Below are positions 13,217-21,663 of a DNA stretch of 64,000 nt, one piece after another; the first letter of the stretch is position 1, and every line of letters starts with the position of its first letter. Made by a program: the position numbers and the translations under genes. Where the stretch lies: positions 124,001 to 188,000 of the forward strand of contig CANQNS010000002.1 of NCBI GenBank assembly GCA_947625285.1, written 5' to 3'. This stretch comes from an uncultured Oscillospiraceae bacterium (GTDB lineage Bacteria > Bacillota > Clostridia > Oscillospirales > Oscillospiraceae). The notes beneath the pieces are model-generated. The model saw only the letters and a list, made by a program, of their open reading frames with translations, was not told where the DNA came from and made no database searches.

Positions 13217-14104
13217 TCAACTATTCTCCAGAAAGAAATCGCACTCCTCCTGGTTGCAGGCCTGGGCCTCCGGCAGACGGATGTTCAGGTGGAACACATG
13301 GCCCATATGCTCCTGGCCCTCCTGGCCGTAACACTTATATCGGAAGCTGACGCTCTGGCGCCGCAGCCGTTCCGCCAGCAGAGCCGCCTGGTCTTTCAGA
13401 AAGTCGTATCGGGCGGTCTGGACGAAGGTGGGCGGGAAGGCGGGGCCGATGTGGGCCAGCGCGTCCACCAGGGGCAGGCATTCCCGCAGGCGGTCCCCGA
13501 AGTAGGCGGCCATGACCCCCGTGGACGCAGCCGGGTCCTCCGGGGCCTCGAATTGGTATTGGCCGCAGTTGAGGGCCGCCGCCCTTACCCGCAGGTCCGG
13601 CAGGGGATAGCCGTACAACGCCCCGTAGGCGGGGTCCGTGAGCATAGCCAGATACTGGCAGGCAAGCTGCCCGCCGGCGGAGTCCCCCACCACGAACAGC
13701 CGCTCCCGGTCCATGTGGTACGCCCCGGCGTTTTCCGCCACCCAGGTGAAGGCGGCGTTCACATCCTTCACCGCCGCGGGGAAGGGGTCCTCCGGGGCCA
13801 GCCGGTAGCTGAAATTCACCACCGCGAAGCCCCGCCGGGCCAGGTCCATGCAGTAGTACCGGTAAAGGTCCTTGTCTCCGTAGACCCAGCCCCCTCCGTG
13901 GACGCTGACGATGCAGGGCAGGAGCCGGTCGCCGGCGGCCCTGGGCCGGTATACGTCCAGCAGGTTCCACCGGCCGTGTGGGCCGTAGGGGATGTCGGGG
14001 AAGGGGACCACGTCCTCCGGCGGGACGAGGCCCGCGTCCCGGACCGCGTCCGCCGCCCCGAAGGCGGCGCGGATGGCCCGGTAGTCCATTTCAGATGGGT
14101 TCAT
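13217..14104 (-). CDS. Alpha/beta hydrolase, HSL-type esterase
   Basis: 295-aa esterase/lipase of the hormone-sensitive-lipase type. The oxyanion motif HGGGW (69-73) and nucleophile GDSAGG (Ser142) are clear; the catalytic His is likely in EHMGHVFH near the end. There is no signal peptide, so it is cytoplasmic. Situated between GH42 and the ATP-grasp gene, it may remove acyl groups (for example acetyl) from imported galactan oligosaccharides; this is inferred from context. The ATG follows AGGAGGTCATGAT. Confidence 0.85.
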   Translation of the reverse strand: MNPSEMDYRAIRAAFGAADAVRDAGLVPPEDVVPFPDIPYGPHGRWNLLDVYRPRAAGDRLLPCIVSVHGGGWVYGDKDLYRYYCMDLARRGFAVVNFSYRLAPEDPFPAAVKDVNAAFTWVAENAGAYHMDRERLFVVGDSAGGQLACQYLAMLTDPAYGALYGYPLPDLRVRAAALNCGQYQFEAPEDPAASTGVMAAYFGDRLRECLPLVDALAHIGPAFPPTFVQTARYDFLKDQAALLAERLRRQSVSFRYKCYGQEGQEHMGHVFHLNIRLPEAQACNQEECDFFLENS

Positions 14105-14159: not shown

Positions 14160-16169
14160 TCACTGTGCTTCCAGGATCGCCGCGCCCCAGCCGGGCAGAT
14201 CGAAAGGCTCGTCCGCCCCCAGGACGGCGCCGTCCGGCAGGGACCGGGCGGACGGGTGGGGCAGGGAGACGGTCAGGGCCTGGCCGGAGTAGTTTAAGTA
14301 AAACGTGACCTGGCGGCCCGCCATGTTGGTCCCGCTTTTCACGATGAGGGGGAACCGGGCCCCGGACAAGTCCAGGCCGGACCGGGGCAGGAGCCAGGCC
14401 AGCACCGCGTCCAGCGCGTCGGGGCCGAAGCAGCAGGCCAGATACGCCGCGCTGCCCGCGCCGTAGTCGTTCACCGTCACGGCAGGCATACCGCCCCAGG
14501 CCGGGTGGTCGTAGACGCACAGGGCCCTGGCGGTAGTCAGCTCCGGCAGCTCCAGCCAGTCGGTGACGGCCGGGTCCGGGGGCAGGGCGATCGCGCTGGA
14601 GGCCAGCCGGGCCCCCTGGGGCTTGGTGAACCGGTCGTAGGTCAGGCCGAAGCAGTCCGTCAGCAGATGGGGCTGGGCGTCGTGGTAAATTTTGAGGTGT
14701 TCGTTTGCAAAGCCCGTGCGGAAGCTGGCAAGCACATGGCCGCCGGCCTTCACGTATGTATCGACGGCCCGCAGAAGGTCCTCCGGCGCGGAATAGAGGC
14801 AGGGCAGGACCAGCAGGTCGTAGTCCGAAAAGTCCCGGCGGCTGTCGGGGACGATGTCGTATTCCGCGTTCAGCCGGTACAGCCCGTCGCAGAGCCAGCG
14901 CACATAGTCGGCGTAGGTCTTGTCCGGCTCCTCTCCGGGGCCGCAGGTGGGGAACCAGGCCAGCCCCGTCTGGGACCGCTCGCTGATCAGCACGGCTACC
15001 CGGTTTTTCTTTTTCAGATGCAGCAGGTGCGGCGACAGCGCGGCCAGCTCCGCGCCGATCCGGGCCGCATCCCGGTAGGTCTGGTCCGGGGCCAGGTCGT
15101 GGCTCAAAACGCCCTTCCAGTAGCTCTCCAGGGCGTTGTGGATGCTGTGCCAGTGCCAGTATTCCACGCAGTCCGCGCCGTTTGCCAGGTGGCTCAAAGC
15201 CTGCAGCCGGAGCTGTCCCGGCCAGGGGAGCCAGCCGAAGTTGCCCTGGGCCTGGGTCTCCAGCACCAGGTAGTTGTCCCCCTTCAGACCCCGGGCCAGG
15301 GCCCCGCCGAAGGCGATCTCCGCCCCGGTCAGGTCCGCCCCGGAGGGGTGGTAGATGTCGATGCCGGCCACATCCACGGCCGCCGCCGCGTCGAACTGGT
15401 CCACCTCCGGCTGGGGGCCAAAGGACCAGCCCCGCCAGTCCAGATCAAAGTTATGGGTGACGAACTGGTCCGGCCGCCGGTACTGGTCCACGATGGACCG
15501 CTGCCAGGCGAGGAATTCCGTCACCAGATGCCGCTGGAAGGCGGCGTATTCCGCGCCGAAGCTGCCGTTGATGGTCCCCCGCACGTCGGGCAGATCGTCC
15601 CAGTCGGAGACGGCGTTGGACCAGTAGGCGAAGCCAAACTCCCGGTCCATGGCCTCCGTGGCGCCGAACCGCTCTTTGAGCCAGTCCCGGAAAAGGGCCT
15701 GGGCCCGGGCCGAGCAGGTGTCATAGGGCTTTGTCTCGTTGTCCAACTGAAAGCCGGCGACGCATCGGTACCCCTGCACGGCCTCCATGAGCCGGCGGAT
15801 GATCCGCTCGGCGTGGAAGCGGTAGCCGGGGTGGGTGATGTCGAAATTCTGCCGGGGCCCGTAGCGGCGGGGACCGGCGTGGGTGTCGGCCAGGATGTCC
15901 GGGTATTTTTTGGCGAGCCAGGGAGGTATGGCGTAGGTGGGCGTGCCCACGATCACGGAAAGGCCGTGAGCCTGGGCCGCGTCCAGCACCCGCAGCAGGG
16001 TGGTAAAGTCAAATTCCCCGTCCCGGGGCTCCCAGGTGCTCCAGGTGGATTCCGCCACCCGGATCAGGTTGAACCCGGCGTCGGTCAGCATCCGCATATC
16101 CTGTTCCAGCCGGTCCAGGGGCATATACTCGGCATAGTACGCCGCGCCGAACAGCAATTTGTCGATCAT
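14160..16169 (-). CDS. Beta-galactosidase, GH42
   Basis: 669-aa family 42 glycosidase that removes terminal beta-galactosyl residues. Acid/base Glu145 (FQLDNETKPYD) and nucleophile Glu304 (YLVLETQAQGNFGW) are visible in the TIM barrel, followed by the trimerisation and small beta domains. No signal peptide, so intracellular. The ATG at 16169 follows GGAGGCGTGCC; the reading frame stays open far upstream on this strand but that is a shadow of the divergent gene. It is divergent from the 612-aa unknown gene, and together with GH53 it suggests galactan or galacto-oligosaccharide use. Confidence 0.95.
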   Translation of the reverse strand: MIDKLLFGAAYYAEYMPLDRLEQDMRMLTDAGFNLIRVAESTWSTWEPRDGEFDFTTLLRVLDAAQAHGLSVIVGTPTYAIPPWLAKKYPDILADTHAGPRRYGPRQNFDITHPGYRFHAERIIRRLMEAVQGYRCVAGFQLDNETKPYDTCSARAQALFRDWLKERFGATEAMDREFGFAYWSNAVSDWDDLPDVRGTINGSFGAEYAAFQRHLVTEFLAWQRSIVDQYRRPDQFVTHNFDLDWRGWSFGPQPEVDQFDAAAAVDVAGIDIYHPSGADLTGAEIAFGGALARGLKGDNYLVLETQAQGNFGWLPWPGQLRLQALSHLANGADCVEYWHWHSIHNALESYWKGVLSHDLAPDQTYRDAARIGAELAALSPHLLHLKKKNRVAVLISERSQTGLAWFPTCGPGEEPDKTYADYVRWLCDGLYRLNAEYDIVPDSRRDFSDYDLLVLPCLYSAPEDLLRAVDTYVKAGGHVLASFRTGFANEHLKIYHDAQPHLLTDCFGLTYDRFTKPQGARLASSAIALPPDPAVTDWLELPELTTARALCVYDHPAWGGMPAVTVNDYGAGSAAYLACCFGPDALDAVLAWLLPRSGLDLSGARFPLIVKSGTNMAGRQVTFYLNYSGQALTVSLPHPSARSLPDGAVLGADEPFDLPGWGAAILEAQ

Positions 16170-16214
16170 GGCACGCCTCCACTTGACGGGGGGATGGTTT
16201 ATTGATATAACTGG

Positions 16215-16220
16215 ATTATA
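16215..16220 (-). promoter_or_regulatory. Candidate -10 for the GH42 operon
   Basis: TATAAT on the minus strand, 46 bases before the GH42 start, with only a weak TTCATT 16 bases further upstream. It lies in the 117-base divergent intergenic region, which also must serve the plus-strand gene. Confidence 0.45.
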
Positions 16221-16271
16221 CAGGATATCGCGGCAGAATGAAACAAGAAATTTTAACATTTTAACGTGAGG

Positions 16272-16286
16272 AGGCGTTTCGCGCCT
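16272..16286 (+). promoter_or_regulatory. Short hairpin between ribosome site and start codon
   Basis: AGGCG/CGCCT pairs with a TTTCG loop between GGAGG (16270-16274) and the ATG at 16287. The 12-base spacing would be shortened if the hairpin forms, but the stem also takes up the end of the ribosome site. Confidence 0.4.
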
Positions 16287-18125
16287 ATGGAGCAGTTCAT
16301 CGTCAACATCATCCACCGGCCGGAGATGGTCCCGGAGTACGCCGAGAAGGTCACCGGCCAGGGCCGGGCCGAGGACATCGGCCGGAAGGCCCTGCTGACG
16401 GAGAGCCTGGACATCTTCAAGACCCAGCAGCAGATCGCCCACCAAAACGGGCTCAAGACCACCATCCAGATGACCTATGCCAGTCTTTTCAACGCCGAGG
16501 CGGTGGCTCTTGCCAAAGAGCACCACGAAAAATACGGCGACGAGATCGGCCTGAGCCTGCTGGGGCTGCCCTGCGAGCAGTTCCGGGAGAAGTACAAGAC
16601 CAAGGACTTCTGCATCTGGATGTTCTCCATGGAGGACAAAAAGGCCATCGTCCGGGATGTGTTCGGAAAGTTCCACGACGCCTTTGGCTTTTACCCGCAG
16701 TCCACCGGGTCCTATTACATGGACGCGGACCTCATCAACTTCATCAAGGCGGAGTATCCCTCCGTCAAGTGCGCCATCGCCACCTGCTGGGAGGAGGGGC
16801 CCAAGGCCTACCACACCTGCAACAACAGTTGGTACACCCTGATGGACGGCGGCCCCTGGGCCCCCTGGATACCCTCCAAACAGAACACCCACGCCCCCGC
16901 CGCCAACCAGGCCGAGGACAGCGGCATCGTCGCCATACCCCACCTGAGCCGGGACCTGCTGGCCTGCTATGACGGCAACGGCTCCAACTTCGGCACCCAC
17001 CCCCAGAACGTGCTGCGGGGCATGATCTACGACACCTCCACCTGGGAGTACCCCTATCTCTATAACCTGATCGACCAGTACCGGCACCTGGTAAAGTTCA
17101 ACAACGGCTACGCCTACAACATGATGTTCGTGGGCCCCGGCTGGATGAACAAGATGGGCCGCTGGGAGGCTCCTTACGAGCTTTTGAAGAAGTCCTATGA
17201 GGACGGCTGCGCCTATTACGGCAAGCTGAAAAAAGAGGGCAAGCTCATCGACATGACTATGAGCGAGTTCGCGGATTTCTACCGGCGGAAAAAGACCTAC
17301 GCCGAGCCGGAGTGCGCCCTGTGGCGGGATATCCTCTACGGCAGCGACAAGCAGCTTTTCTGGTACTGCGACCCCTACCAGCGGGTCTGCGTCAACATGG
17401 ACCAGGGCGGGGCCATCGTGGACCTGCGGCCCTACGCGGCCAAGCTGGAGTGGCCGGTGGGCATCGGCACGAAGCACGTTCAGGACGCCAGCTATCCCTT
17501 CCTGATCCAAGAGAAGTACCGGGCCGGCTACTTTACCCACTACGCCGGGGAGGGCACCATCCGCAGCGCGAAGCTCTGCCACAACGGGGAGGAGGTGGAC
17601 CTGTGCCTGTGCCGGACCCACGCCCATTTCTCCCAGCAGGGAGGCGAGCGGGTGCTGACCCTGGACCCGGTGGACGTGGCGTTTTCCGACCTGACCGTGA
17701 AGGTGCAGACCGTCATCGCCTTCCCGGAGGGGACGGGCCGGATCCGCATCGAGCGGCGGGTGCTTTCCATGAGCGACCCGGCGGCGGAGGTCACCGTCAA
17801 CGAGTACATGGTGGCCTGCTACGGCACCACCGAGTACCCGGAGGACATGACCGGCCTGACGCTGGCCGTGTCGGCGGGGGACAGGAGCGAGACGATCCCC
17901 TATGAATACAAATGCCGGGAGGCGTCCATGGATGTCGCGGACAGCGTGAGCTGCACCCTGCCGCCCATCAAAACGAAGGTCACCATGACCTGCCAGGGAG
18001 CGGACAAGACGGGCTATGTCCGGGAGGGTTACGCCTTCAGTCCCATGTTCACCCTGGGCTATACGGGAAAACTTCACCACAAGGAGGCGTTCGTCACATG
18101 GCTCAATCTGGAAAGGGCAGACTGA
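16287..18125 (+). CDS. Uncharacterised 612-aa protein of the galactan island
   Basis: I do not recognise this family with certainty. The N-terminal 370 residues read like a (beta/alpha) barrel of the polysaccharide-deacetylase/GH57 kind (FKTQQQIAHQNGLKTTIQM, AFGFYPQSTGSYYMDADLI, CAIATCWEEGPKAYHT, APWIPSKQNTHAPA). The last 240 residues look like beta-sandwich domains. No signal peptide or membrane segment. It may be related to the uncharacterised DUF3863/DUF3864-type proteins; that is a guess to test. The ATG at 16287 is preferred over the GTG at 16266, which precedes the ribosome site. It heads an operon with a zinc ribbon, GH53 and GH3, so a role in carbohydrate breakdown is likely. Confidence 0.6.
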   Translation: MEQFIVNIIHRPEMVPEYAEKVTGQGRAEDIGRKALLTESLDIFKTQQQIAHQNGLKTTIQMTYASLFNAEAVALAKEHHEKYGDEIGLSLLGLPCEQFREKYKTKDFCIWMFSMEDKKAIVRDVFGKFHDAFGFYPQSTGSYYMDADLINFIKAEYPSVKCAIATCWEEGPKAYHTCNNSWYTLMDGGPWAPWIPSKQNTHAPAANQAEDSGIVAIPHLSRDLLACYDGNGSNFGTHPQNVLRGMIYDTSTWEYPYLYNLIDQYRHLVKFNNGYAYNMMFVGPGWMNKMGRWEAPYELLKKSYEDGCAYYGKLKKEGKLIDMTMSEFADFYRRKKTYAEPECALWRDILYGSDKQLFWYCDPYQRVCVNMDQGGAIVDLRPYAAKLEWPVGIGTKHVQDASYPFLIQEKYRAGYFTHYAGEGTIRSAKLCHNGEEVDLCLCRTHAHFSQQGGERVLTLDPVDVAFSDLTVKVQTVIAFPEGTGRIRIERRVLSMSDPAAEVTVNEYMVACYGTTEYPEDMTGLTLAVSAGDRSETIPYEYKCREASMDVADSVSCTLPPIKTKVTMTCQGADKTGYVREGYAFSPMFTLGYTGKLHHKEAFVTWLNLERAD

Positions 18126-18325
18126 ACTACCGCTGCCCCTCCTGCTTCATGCGGGATCTGGACATCGATATGTTTTACGATAAGGACAAGGATGAGTACT
18201 ACTGCATCCGCTGCCAGTACCGGGGCAATGAGGCGGACGTGCTGGCGAAAAACCAGCTGGCCCGGTTCCGTTACGGGGCCATGATGCGCCGGTTCACGGA
18301 CTTTGAGGATTTCTCCGACGGCTGA
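18098..18325 (+). CDS. Small zinc-ribbon protein
   Basis: 75-aa protein with two CxxC pairs (CPSC and CIRC) separated by a short charged loop with DMFYDKDKDEYYC, the pattern of a treble-clef or zinc ribbon. No other domain. The ATG overlaps the end of the 612-aa gene by 28 bases in another frame and has AAGGAGG ten bases upstream. Its high-GC third positions continue beyond the overlap. The stop is four bases before the GH53 start. Function unknown; it could be a nucleic-acid or protein adaptor. Confidence 0.75.
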   Translation: MAQSGKGRLNYRCPSCFMRDLDIDMFYDKDKDEYYCIRCQYRGNEADVLAKNQLARFRYGAMMRRFTDFEDFSDG

Positions 18326-18329
18326 TACC

Positions 18330-19436
18330 ATGGGAGATATCATCAAGGGCATGGACCTGTCCTCCTTGCCGGAGGTGGAGGAGCTGGGAGGCCGGTTCTC
18401 CGACGGCTCCGGCCCCGGCGACGCGGTGGAGATATTGCGGCGGCACGGGATGAACTGGGTCCGGCTGCGGCTGTGGAACGACCCCCGGTCCGAGACCGGC
18501 GAGCCCTACGGCGCGGGAAACTGCGGTCTGGAGCGGGTCATGACTATGGCCCGGCGGGCGAAGGCGGCCGGGTGCAGGTGGCTGCTGGCCTTTCATTACA
18601 GCGACTTCTGGGCCGACCCGGGCAAGCAGCTCCCCCCCAAGGCCTGGCGGGGGCTGGACCCGGCGGGGACGGAGCGGGCGGTATACGATTTCACCCGCCG
18701 GACCCTGCAGGCCCTGGCTGATCAGGGCCTTGCGCCGGATATGGCGGCGGTGGGCAACGAGATCACCAACGGCCTTCTCTGGCCCCTGGGCCGGTACCCG
18801 GACTTTGCCAACATCGTCCGATTCGTCAACGCGGGCATCCGGGCCGTCCGGGAGACCGCTCCCGCCGCGGAGGTGATGCTCCACCTGGACAACGGGGGCC
18901 GCGGCGATATCTGCAGGGACTGGCTGGATCGGTACCGGGCCGCCGGCGGCGCGGACTTCGACGTGCTGGGACTGAGCTATTATCCCTTCTGGCACGGGCC
19001 CATGGAGGGGCTGCGGCGGAATATGGCGGACCTGGCCGTCCGATACGGCAGGGACATGATCGTGACGGAGACCTCCATGGGCTTCACCCTGGACGATTAC
19101 GCCGCCTGGGAGGGCCTGCCCCCGGACCGCCGCAAGGGCATGGCCGCCACGGCGGAGCGGGCCAGGGGCATCGCCTGGCCCATGACACGGCAGGGCCAGC
19201 GGGACTATCTGCGGGACCTGGCGGCGGCGGTACGGGCCGTGCCGGAGGGCAGGTGCCGGGGCTTCATGTGGTGGGAACCGGCCTGGCTGCCCGTGCCGGG
19301 CAGCGGCTGGGCCACGGAGGCCGCCCTGCGCTATACGGGCGAAGCGGGCCCCGGCGGCAACGAGTGGGCCAACCAGGCCCTGTTCGATTACGACGGCCGG
19401 GCCCTGCCCGCGCTGGAGGAGCTGGGGACGCTGTAG
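18330..19436 (+). CDS. Arabinogalactan endo-beta-1,4-galactanase, GH53 (no signal peptide)
   Basis: 368-aa GH53 enzyme that cuts beta-1,4-galactan. The family start GMDLSSLPEVEELGG, the acid/base region AVGNEITNGLLW and the nucleophile region VTETSMGFT are all present, with WWEPAW near the end. GH53 enzymes are often secreted, but this one begins directly at the catalytic domain, so it should act on imported oligosaccharides. The ATG at 18330 lacks a strong ribosome site and lies four bases after the zinc-ribbon stop, pointing to coupling. Confidence 0.93.
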   Translation: MGDIIKGMDLSSLPEVEELGGRFSDGSGPGDAVEILRRHGMNWVRLRLWNDPRSETGEPYGAGNCGLERVMTMARRAKAAGCRWLLAFHYSDFWADPGKQLPPKAWRGLDPAGTERAVYDFTRRTLQALADQGLAPDMAAVGNEITNGLLWPLGRYPDFANIVRFVNAGIRAVRETAPAAEVMLHLDNGGRGDICRDWLDRYRAAGGADFDVLGLSYYPFWHGPMEGLRRNMADLAVRYGRDMIVTETSMGFTLDDYAAWEGLPPDRRKGMAATAERARGIAWPMTRQGQRDYLRDLAAAVRAVPEGRCRGFMWWEPAWLPVPGSGWATEAALRYTGEAGPGGNEWANQALFDYDGRALPALEELGTL

Positions 19437-19509: not shown

Positions 19510-21663
19510 ATGGAGCTGCGGGAGAACAGCCGGAGGATAGCGGAGTACAAACGCCGGGCCGGGGAGCTGGTGGAGCGGATGACGCTGGAGGAGAAGATCT
19601 TTCAGCTGCTCCACGACGCCCCGGCCATTCCCCGTTTGGGGGTGCCGGCCTACAACTGGTGGAACGAGGCCCTGCACGGCGTCGCCCGGGCGGGCACCGC
19701 CACGGTGTTCCCCCAGGCCATCGGCCTGGCCGCCGCTTTCGACGAGGACCTGATGGAAATGGTGGGCGGCGCGGTGTCCACCGAGGCCCGGGCCAAGTTC
19801 AACGCCCAGCAGGCTTACGGCGACCGGGATATCTATAAGGGCCTGACGGTGTGGTCGCCCAACGTGAACATCTTCCGGGACCCCCGCTGGGGCCGGGGCC
19901 ATGAGACATACGGGGAGGACCCCTGGCTCACGGCCCGGCTGGGCGTGCGCTACGTCCGGGGCCTGCAGGGCACGGACCCGGATCATCTGAAAACCGCCGC
20001 CTGCGCCAAGCATTTCGCGGTCCACTCCGGCCCGGAGGGCCTGCGCCACGAGTTCGACGCCCGGGTCTCCCGGCAGGACCTGTTCGAGACATATCTGCCC
20101 GCCTTTGAGGCCCTGGTGCGGGAGGCGGGGGTGGAGGCGGTCATGGGGGCCTACAACCGGGTCAACGGAGAGCCCTGCTGCGCCAGCCCCACCCTGCTGG
20201 GGGATATCCTCCGGGACCGCTGGGGCTTCGACGGCCACGTCGTCTCCGACTGCTGGGCCATCCGGGACATCCATGAGGGCCACGGCGTCGCCGGCAGCGC
20301 GGAGCAGTCCGCCGCGCTGGCCCTGAAAAACGGGTGCGACCTCAACTGCGGCTCCGCCTTCGGCCATCTTCTCCAGGCCGTGGCGGACGGCCTGGTGACG
20401 GAGGAGCAGGTGGACCGGGCCTGCCGGCGGCTTTTCACCACCCGCATGAAGCTGGGCCTGTTCGACCCGCCGGAGACGGTGGCCTATTCCGCCATCCCCT
20501 ATGAGGCCGTGGACAGCCCCGCCATGCGGGAGCTGGCCCTGGACGCCGCCCGGCGGACGCTGGTGCTGCTGAAAAACGACGGGGGTCTGCTGCCCCTTGA
20601 CCGGAACGGGCTGGGGACCGTGGGGGTCGTGGGCCCCAACGCCGACAGCCGCCGGGCCCTGACGGGCAACTATGCGGGCACCGCCAGCCGGTATGTGACC
20701 GTGCTGGAGGGCATCCAGGACTACCTGGGCGGCGGCGTGCGGGTGCTCTATTCCCAGGGGTGCCATCTGTACAAAGAGAGCGTGGAGGGCCTGGCCCGGC
20801 CGGGGGACCGGCTCAGCGAGGTGAAGGCGGTGTGCGCCGCCAGCGACGTGGTGATCGTGTGCCTGGGCCTGGACGGGGACCTGGAGGGAGAGCAGGGCGA
20901 CGCGGGCAACAGCTACGCCGCCGGCGACAAGCCGGATCTGTCCCTGCCGGGGCTCCAGGAGGAGGTGCTGCGGACCTGTGTTGCCAGCGGCAAGCCGGTG
21001 GTGGCGGTGCTGCTGTCCGGCAGCGCGCTGGCGGTGGACTGGGCGGCGGAGCACGTGCCCGCCATCTTGCAGTGCTGGTACCCCGGCGAACAGGGCGGAA
21101 CGGCCATTGCCCAGGTCCTGTTCGGGGAATACGCCCCGGAGGGGAAGCTGCCGGTGACCTTCTACCGGGGGGATCACGCGCTGCCGCCCTTTACGGACTA
21201 CGCCATGGCCGGCCGGACATATCGTTATATGGAGGGCCCCGCGCTGTACCCCTTTGGCTACGGGCTCAGCTACACCGCCTTCGCCGTCACGGAGGCGGCC
21301 CTGTCCGGCGATGAGGTGACGGCGGCGGGCCTCACCGTACGCTGCCGGGTGACTAATCGGGGCGGCCGCGCCGCCCGCGCCACGGTGCAGGTCTATGTGA
21401 AGGCGGACCGGCCCGGCACGCCCAACGCCCAGCTAAAGGGCCTGAAGAAGCTCTTTCTGACGCCGGGGGAGACAGCGTGGACGGAGATATCCCTGCCGGT
21501 GGCGGCCTTCTCCCTGTGCGATGAGAGCGGCGCACGGACCGTGGAGCCGGGCCGGTACGGGGTGTACGTGGGCCAGTCCCAGCCGGACGAACGCAGCCGG
21601 GAGCTGCTGGGCGACGCCCCGGTACGGCTGGAGGCGGTGTGCCGGGAGCGGCTGGAGATATAA
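19510..21663 (+). CDS. Beta-glycosidase, GH3 (xylosidase/glucosidase type)
   Basis: 717-aa family 3 glycoside hydrolase with the usual order: TIM barrel (about 20-330; RDPRWGRGHETYGED), alpha/beta sandwich (about 350-570) and C-terminal fibronectin III-like domain (about 600-700). The nucleophile Asp is in HVVSDCWAI and the KH motif in CAKHFAVHSG. No signal peptide, so cytoplasmic. It resembles beta-xylosidase/beta-glucosidase members; the exact sugar is not determined. The ATG follows GGAAAGGGGCGGAT. Last gene of the plus-strand carbohydrate operon. Confidence 0.93.
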   Translation: MELRENSRRIAEYKRRAGELVERMTLEEKIFQLLHDAPAIPRLGVPAYNWWNEALHGVARAGTATVFPQAIGLAAAFDEDLMEMVGGAVSTEARAKFNAQQAYGDRDIYKGLTVWSPNVNIFRDPRWGRGHETYGEDPWLTARLGVRYVRGLQGTDPDHLKTAACAKHFAVHSGPEGLRHEFDARVSRQDLFETYLPAFEALVREAGVEAVMGAYNRVNGEPCCASPTLLGDILRDRWGFDGHVVSDCWAIRDIHEGHGVAGSAEQSAALALKNGCDLNCGSAFGHLLQAVADGLVTEEQVDRACRRLFTTRMKLGLFDPPETVAYSAIPYEAVDSPAMRELALDAARRTLVLLKNDGGLLPLDRNGLGTVGVVGPNADSRRALTGNYAGTASRYVTVLEGIQDYLGGGVRVLYSQGCHLYKESVEGLARPGDRLSEVKAVCAASDVVIVCLGLDGDLEGEQGDAGNSYAAGDKPDLSLPGLQEEVLRTCVASGKPVVAVLLSGSALAVDWAAEHVPAILQCWYPGEQGGTAIAQVLFGEYAPEGKLPVTFYRGDHALPPFTDYAMAGRTYRYMEGPALYPFGYGLSYTAFAVTEAALSGDEVTAAGLTVRCRVTNRGGRAARATVQVYVKADRPGTPNAQLKGLKKLFLTPGETAWTEISLPVAAFSLCDESGARTVEPGRYGVYVGQSQPDERSRELLGDAPVRLEAVCRERLEI

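Follow-up and report, generated by a model that had tools for sequence, protein, structure and literature searches.

A conserved gene pair for a 612-residue protein of unnamed family and a zinc ribbon in galactan-linked operons of gut and rumen Clostridia

Introduction

Of the systems described so far, the gan operon of Bacillus subtilis, ganSPQAB, a set of five genes (PMC5472308), is closest to the locus that we analyse here. The Roseburia and Eubacterium rectale loci Ros-9 and Eub-2 combine a GH53, a GH2 and a transporter for arabinogalactan, with their other genes marked just as hypothetical (PMC5320581). Loci related to ours resemble the gan operon in containing a binding protein, two permeases, a GH42 and a GH53, and they come from the same bacterial group as Ros-9 and Eub-2, with Roseburia hominis (L086) among the best 80 of 452 relatives. 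The window, by which we mean the whole 64,000-nt stretch of DNA from an uncultured Oscillospiraceae bacterium that was analysed, has a GH53 and a GH42, and no importer gene adjoins its operon. As we understand the roles of the ganSPQAB genes, two genes of the window are not among them, one for a 612-aa protein and one for a small zinc ribbon. Here, we describe this gene pair.

Results

The 612-residue protein and its neighbours in the window

The genes around the 612-aa frame are laid out as follows.

13217–14104, minus strand: alpha/beta hydrolase of the Abhydrolase_3/BD-FAE type, adjoining GH42 (Pfam)
14160–16169, minus strand: GH42 beta-galactosidase, divergent, likely ATG 16169 (669 aa; Pfam PF02449, E 3.3e-73)
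16287–18125, plus strand: 612-aa protein of an unnamed family, a proposed cytoplasmic carbohydrate-active enzyme (open reading frame, relatives, codon-position pattern)
18081–18087, plus strand: Shine–Dalgarno sequence AAGGAGG of the zinc-ribbon gene, within the 612-aa gene (sequence; conservation across 81 loci)
18098–18325, plus strand: 75-aa zinc-ribbon protein, CPSC ... CIRC (ATG 81/81, GGAGG 81/81, Cys motif 79/79)
18330–19436, plus strand: GH53, 368 aa from ATG 18330 (Pfam PF07745, E 1.2e-105 for the longer frame from 18303)
19510–21663, plus strand: GH3 glycosidase (Pfam)

The 612-aa frame opens at ATG 16287, which GAGGAGG precedes, and its translation is stop-free to the TGA at 18123–18125. 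Compared with nine relatives, the frame differs mostly at third codon positions; the R. hominis copy differs at 111, 70 and 407 sites in codon positions 1, 2 and 3. The frame is a real coding gene of 612 aa on the plus strand, as the first-pass annotation of this DNA had it. A 1306-aa antisense frame (window 14160–18080, minus strand) that runs from the 612-aa gene into GH42 was rejected as spurious over the 612-aa gene, because the differences concentrate at the third codon positions of the plus frame.

Pfam confirms the neighbours named in the first pass, which had the gene coupled to GH53 and GH3 and divergent from GH42. The coupling to GH53 is supported, but GH53 does not follow directly: the 75-aa zinc-ribbon gene, which the first pass missed, lies between the two. 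This small gene overlaps the 3′ end of the 612-aa gene by 28 nt, and four bases separate its stop from the GH53 start; with this overlap and gap, the three genes form a tight unit in the window. The window GH53 lacks a hydrophobic N-terminus and contains the motifs NEIT and VTETS, which we take to be its two catalytic Glu sites. The GH42 frame remains open upstream of its likely ATG. The 612-aa gene was also said to head the operon, and it is indeed first in the window's gene row, but a MalG-type permease lies within 1.2 kb upstream in 26 of the 73 related loci with enough flank (best 80 of 452). GH3 appears in none of these best 80 loci in the flanking stretches examined. The BD-FAE-type alpha/beta hydrolase was matched in one of the 80, L028, at 82%, where it again adjoins GH42.

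Searches with the 612-aa protein bear out the earlier impression that it has no clear family. Pfam gives no family (best GSHPx, E 0.1), NCBIfam no match, PHROGs no family (best E 0.22) and phmmer against the PDB nothing at E≤1; no sequence method that we used matched it to a characterised enzyme. A search of plasmids gave no match either. The literature search found no title or abstract opening that describes the gene, nor GH53 together with a zinc ribbon (subscription papers lay mostly outside this search). The protein has 17 Cys. Its N-terminus is not hydrophobic, with a maximum 15-residue Kyte–Doolittle mean of 0.35 over the first 45 aa; this hydrophobicity measure agrees with the signal peptide having been called absent.

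An overlapping gene encodes a zinc ribbon

To describe the small gene across relatives we used 81 loci, the window plus the best 80 of 452 relatives, and all counts in this section refer to that set. Its ATG is kept in 81/81 loci, and upstream of it stand AAGGAGG in 77, AGGAGG in 79 and GGAGG in all 81. This ATG rests on the Thr codon that precedes a Trp in the large protein. Any third base would still encode Thr, yet the codon is ACA in 81/81. Two copies are interrupted by contig ends; the 79 complete ones, 64–80 aa long, all carry CP[SA]C...CxxC.

Aligned zinc-ribbon relatives start right where the large gene stops, at a codon that is TTA in 45, CTG in 30, CTA in 4 and TTG in 2 of the 81 loci, and a programmed frameshift from the large gene into the zinc ribbon was first suspected for this reason. 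The ATG that lies further upstream with its Shine–Dalgarno sequence in 81/81 loci rules this out and makes the zinc ribbon an ordinary overlapping gene.

Neither Pfam nor NCBIfam places the zinc-ribbon protein in a family above cut-off. It resembles the short zinc-ribbon families YheV (TIGR02443), ECs_2282 (NF047912) and DUF2387 (PF09526) in its two CxxC pairs and in length, with NCBIfam E-values of 3.1e-4 to 0.014 and a best DUF2387 E-value of 6.2e-4, but its scores of about 15–21 bits compare with curated cut-offs of 37, 49 and 26, respectively.

The two genes occur together

Among 120 genomes of the family of G723, the close-type 612-aa gene and the zinc ribbon are found in the identical 15 (Fisher p 2e-19, a value that ignores kinship, as the genome counts are uncorrected for shared ancestry). 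Three more of the 120 contain distant relatives of the large protein only, at 24–27% identity, and no zinc ribbon. In genomes G000–G039 the large gene is present in 15 and the zinc ribbon in 14; the exception is G014, in which the large-protein match stops at residue 304. Two draft-genome copies contain internal TGA codons, one of the large gene (G006:C142:3256-4346) and one of the zinc ribbon (G016:C31:9040-9261), reflecting either decay or assembly error.

One of the 15 pair genomes, G760, has a diverged pair in which the large protein is a 39% and the zinc ribbon a 35% relative. The genes overlap by 31 nt, with AAGGAGG ahead of the zinc-ribbon ATG, and they adjoin a GH29 fucosidase, ABC permease genes and two oxidoreductases. 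In this one strongly diverged case, the module has thus stayed together in a different operon.

The close relatives of the 612-aa protein (75–95% identity, best 80 of 452) are patchily distributed over gut and rumen Lachnospiraceae and Oscillospiraceae, Clostridia, among the matches listed. Beyond the window's own genome, two close copies were found in a sample of 295 genomes from the order and none in a sample of 398 from the phylum.

The pair is linked to GH53 and often accompanied by importer genes

Neighbours in the related loci were counted by tblastn mapping, here again among the best 80 of 452 relatives. Of the 70 loci with over 2 kb of flank on each side, 61 have a same-strand GH53 no more than 2 kb away. 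Many stretches end early, so the remaining counts are lower bounds: importer genes accompany the pair in at least 52/80 loci, a LacI-type regulator in at least 40/80 and a GH42 or GH2 in at least 30/80. In L028, the importer's binding protein matches a single NCBIfam model, GanS, with 52.5 bits, below the cut-off of 700. One locus reads, in order, LacI, large gene, zinc ribbon, GH53, a gene for a 403-aa protein and GalT; from its opening residues, we take the 403-aa product to be galactokinase. A TraX-like membrane protein (PF05857) is also present in at least 21/80 loci, often after GH53 (for example, L036:7765-8580).

The linkage also holds at the level of genomes. A close-type GH53 (at least 53% to the query) is present in 11 of the 15 pair genomes versus 1 of the 105 without the pair; the latter is G748, where the GH53 adjoins a LacI-type gene on a 3.3-kb contig. 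The pair genomes that lack it are G745, G760, G771 and G787, of which G771 has a GH53-like gene (29–30%) upstream of the pair. The galactan context proposed in the first pass is supported. One genome that gave no GH53 match encodes, after the pair, a 2209-aa protein (L129:10259-16888) with FIVAR, Big_2 and F5/8 type C domains and a weak signal for cell-wall anchoring.

A GH13 match occurs in 13 of the 80 loci, mostly next to a similar importer, and we considered a maltodextrin operon as the context of the pair. In some loci a further LacI gene in the reverse orientation lies in between, and we therefore read the GH13 genes, without proof, as a neighbouring operon.

The large protein is more conserved than the adjoining galactanase

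Among the 81 loci (best 80 of 452 plus the window), 70 have both a GH53 no more than 2.5 kb away and a complete zinc ribbon. In pairwise comparisons across these 70, copies of the large protein are on average 83% identical, against 77% for the zinc ribbon and 60% for the adjacent GH53. In all 73 loci with a GH53 match (best 80 of 452), the large protein is nearer to the window copy than the GH53 is. At four-fold degenerate sites, the window shares 23–33% identity with the five more distant loci that we compared, a value to which differing base composition contributes; this fits old divergence under strong protein selection over recent transfer. Pairwise distances of the large protein correlate with those of the zinc ribbon (r 0.46) less than with those of GH53 (r 0.66), so this comparison gives no sign of interface co-evolution particular to the zinc ribbon.

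The pair could instead be a sugar-sensing regulator. In such a scheme, the large protein would be a non-catalytic, glycosidase-derived sugar binder, and the zinc ribbon would adjust operon expression through DNA, RNA or RNA polymerase. Small zinc ribbons often act in transcription, and that of L124 gives weak matches, far under cut-off, to archaeal transcription factor S (E 0.001) and RNA polymerase subunit P (E 0.0087); the pair also occurs in operons for different sugars, and its conservation is very strong. However, the LacI-type gene counted above means that many of these loci already have a regulator, and Pfam shows no DNA-binding domain above cut-off in either protein. We consider a regulatory role unlikely.

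To locate candidate residues, we relied on two alignments: A2 (n=70), with the 612-aa protein, 55 of the best 80 relatives and 14 distant relatives, and the close-type A4 (n=17), with the 612-aa protein, 13 of the best 80 and three genome stretches. A3 consists of distant relatives alone, and A1 is a smaller mixed profile in which row L016 had a false N-terminal extension, shortened in A2; L130, L131 and L132–L148 (GH57 search) were left out of the analysis. D146, W111 and Y183 are invariant in 70/70 (A2) and 17/17 (A4) sequences, which makes Asp146, presumably a pocket residue, the first candidate for catalysis. E254 is E in 67/70 (A2) and Q in 2/17 (A4), and D263 is D in 65/70 (A2). With E254 replaced in some members, neither residue is a clear second catalytic carboxylate.

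C167 and C178 are kept in 17/17 close-type sequences (A4), although the invariance of C167 depends on the alignment, as A1 pairs C178 instead. With 17 Cys and these two positions conserved, a metal centre is possible, which speaks for a reading in which the large protein is an enzyme by itself, with the zinc ribbon serving as a maturation factor or chaperone for metal or folding and not as a subunit. The same genetic evidence that suggests a subunit would be explained, but the zinc ribbon, matching no family above cut-off, gives no positive sign of this function, which we regard as improbable.

Distant relatives and tests of kinship

The distant relatives are mostly proteins of about 500 aa from the same order and from the family of G723, and they are homologous to the 612-aa protein over residues 1–390 (hhalign probability 99.2, E 7e-20). 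They occupy varied genomic places, and no zinc-ribbon match lies near them in the 19 stretches searched. GH2- or GH13-like genes are near four of them (L108 and L112; L110 and L119), and two are fused to a CHB_HEX_C_1/Fn3-associated domain (L125:4568-6985, an 805-aa frame, and L118:5089-7212, a 707-aa frame); CHB_HEX_C_1 is a domain common in glycosidases. In L110:7557-10709 and L119:5739-8889, distant 520-aa relatives are duplicated in tandem.

The first pass had pointed to DUF3863 as a family to compare, and this guess finds weak backing in sequence. A match to the uncharacterised 3LM3, which we take to be the founding structure of DUF3863, appears with the mixed profiles (E 0.035 with A1, 2.5e-4 with A2) and spans about 190 residues around G-Y-x-P and YPS...PAQ, whereas A3 and A4 give nothing at E≤10. 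The DUF3863 model PF12979 matches one of the 70 A2 members (the distant relative L021, E 0.11, 11.8 bits against a gathering cut-off of 27) and none of the other 69 at E≤1, the 612-aa protein itself being without a match; it was likewise absent from four genomes and 14 controls. Our literature search, mostly outside subscription papers, returned no mention of DUF3863 or DUF3864, and papers on 3LM3 were unrelated by title. The likeness is faint and profile-dependent, and we treat the kinship as a lead.

The first pass also raised the idea of a deacetylase. In this form, the 612-aa protein would be a divergent member of the superfamily of GH57, GH38 and the polysaccharide deacetylases, for example one that removes acetyl groups from galactan fragments. 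That is how its fold, a probable barrel plus beta-sandwich in the first pass, was first interpreted (the superfamily has a seven-stranded barrel), and an HRPE stretch after the first residues resembles HQP, a GH57 motif; the histidine of HRP, however, is missing from the distant relatives. We compared A2 and A3 by hhalign with CE4 (PF01522 members) and GH38 (PF01074 members), using automatically aligned locus-centre ORFs, a design that a weak true relation could escape. The probabilities were 0.1 (A2) and 3.7 (A3) for CE4 and 0.1 (A2) and 0.2 (A3) for GH38, versus 0.1–2.9 for five control families; the A3 value for CE4 is slightly over the top control, from 39 columns in the C-terminal half only. 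Pfam scans for GH57 (PF03065) gave nothing at E≤10 for the 612-aa protein and nothing at E≤1 for 70 + 14 members; the sampled genomes yielded weak PF03065 matches, several of which coincided with GH38 or CE4 matches. With hhalign near control level, CE4 and GH38 kinship was set aside and the deacetylase idea is not upheld; we consider membership of this superfamily very unlikely.

Discussion

The two genes overlap, are conserved, co-occur and are linked to GH53. The 612-aa protein lacks an export signal, has conserved aromatic and acidic residues and is co-encoded with an importer and hydrolases; for these reasons it is most likely an enzyme that acts on imported oligosaccharides, a prediction made from sequence. 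In the operon of the window, the substrate is probably a galactan-derived oligosaccharide, but because the same pair also adjoins a fucosidase, the family is not restricted to a single sugar. For the zinc ribbon, the simplest reading is a subunit, with a maturation factor or a regulator fitting the genetics equally well.

These considerations lead to a mechanistic proposal. An ABC importer would bring oligosaccharides into the cytoplasm, where the zinc ribbon, made by coupled translation from its overlapping gene, would bind the large protein as a subunit, and the pair would act alongside a beta-galactosidase of GH42 or GH2 and a short GH53 whose N-terminus is not hydrophobic. That the 612-aa protein and its zinc-ribbon partner act in this way on imported oligosaccharides, as an unnamed family of cytoplasmic carbohydrate-active enzymes, is a tentative conclusion that we hold at slightly less than even confidence. 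Going further, the pair may represent a new heteromeric enzyme family, in which a large, glycosidase-like subunit requires a small zinc-ribbon subunit and the two form a module that serves galactan and fucoside operons; this more specific idea is possible rather than probable. A zinc-ribbon partner would, in our judgement, be out of the ordinary for an enzyme that degrades glycans.

Dietary fibre commonly includes pectic galactan. Among Lachnospiraceae and Oscillospiraceae of gut and rumen, the 612-aa gene is more conserved than the galactanase that it adjoins, and Pfam and NCBIfam have no model for it or for the zinc-ribbon gene. Should the pair prove to be an enzyme, the present account of how such bacteria use galactan would be missing a step.
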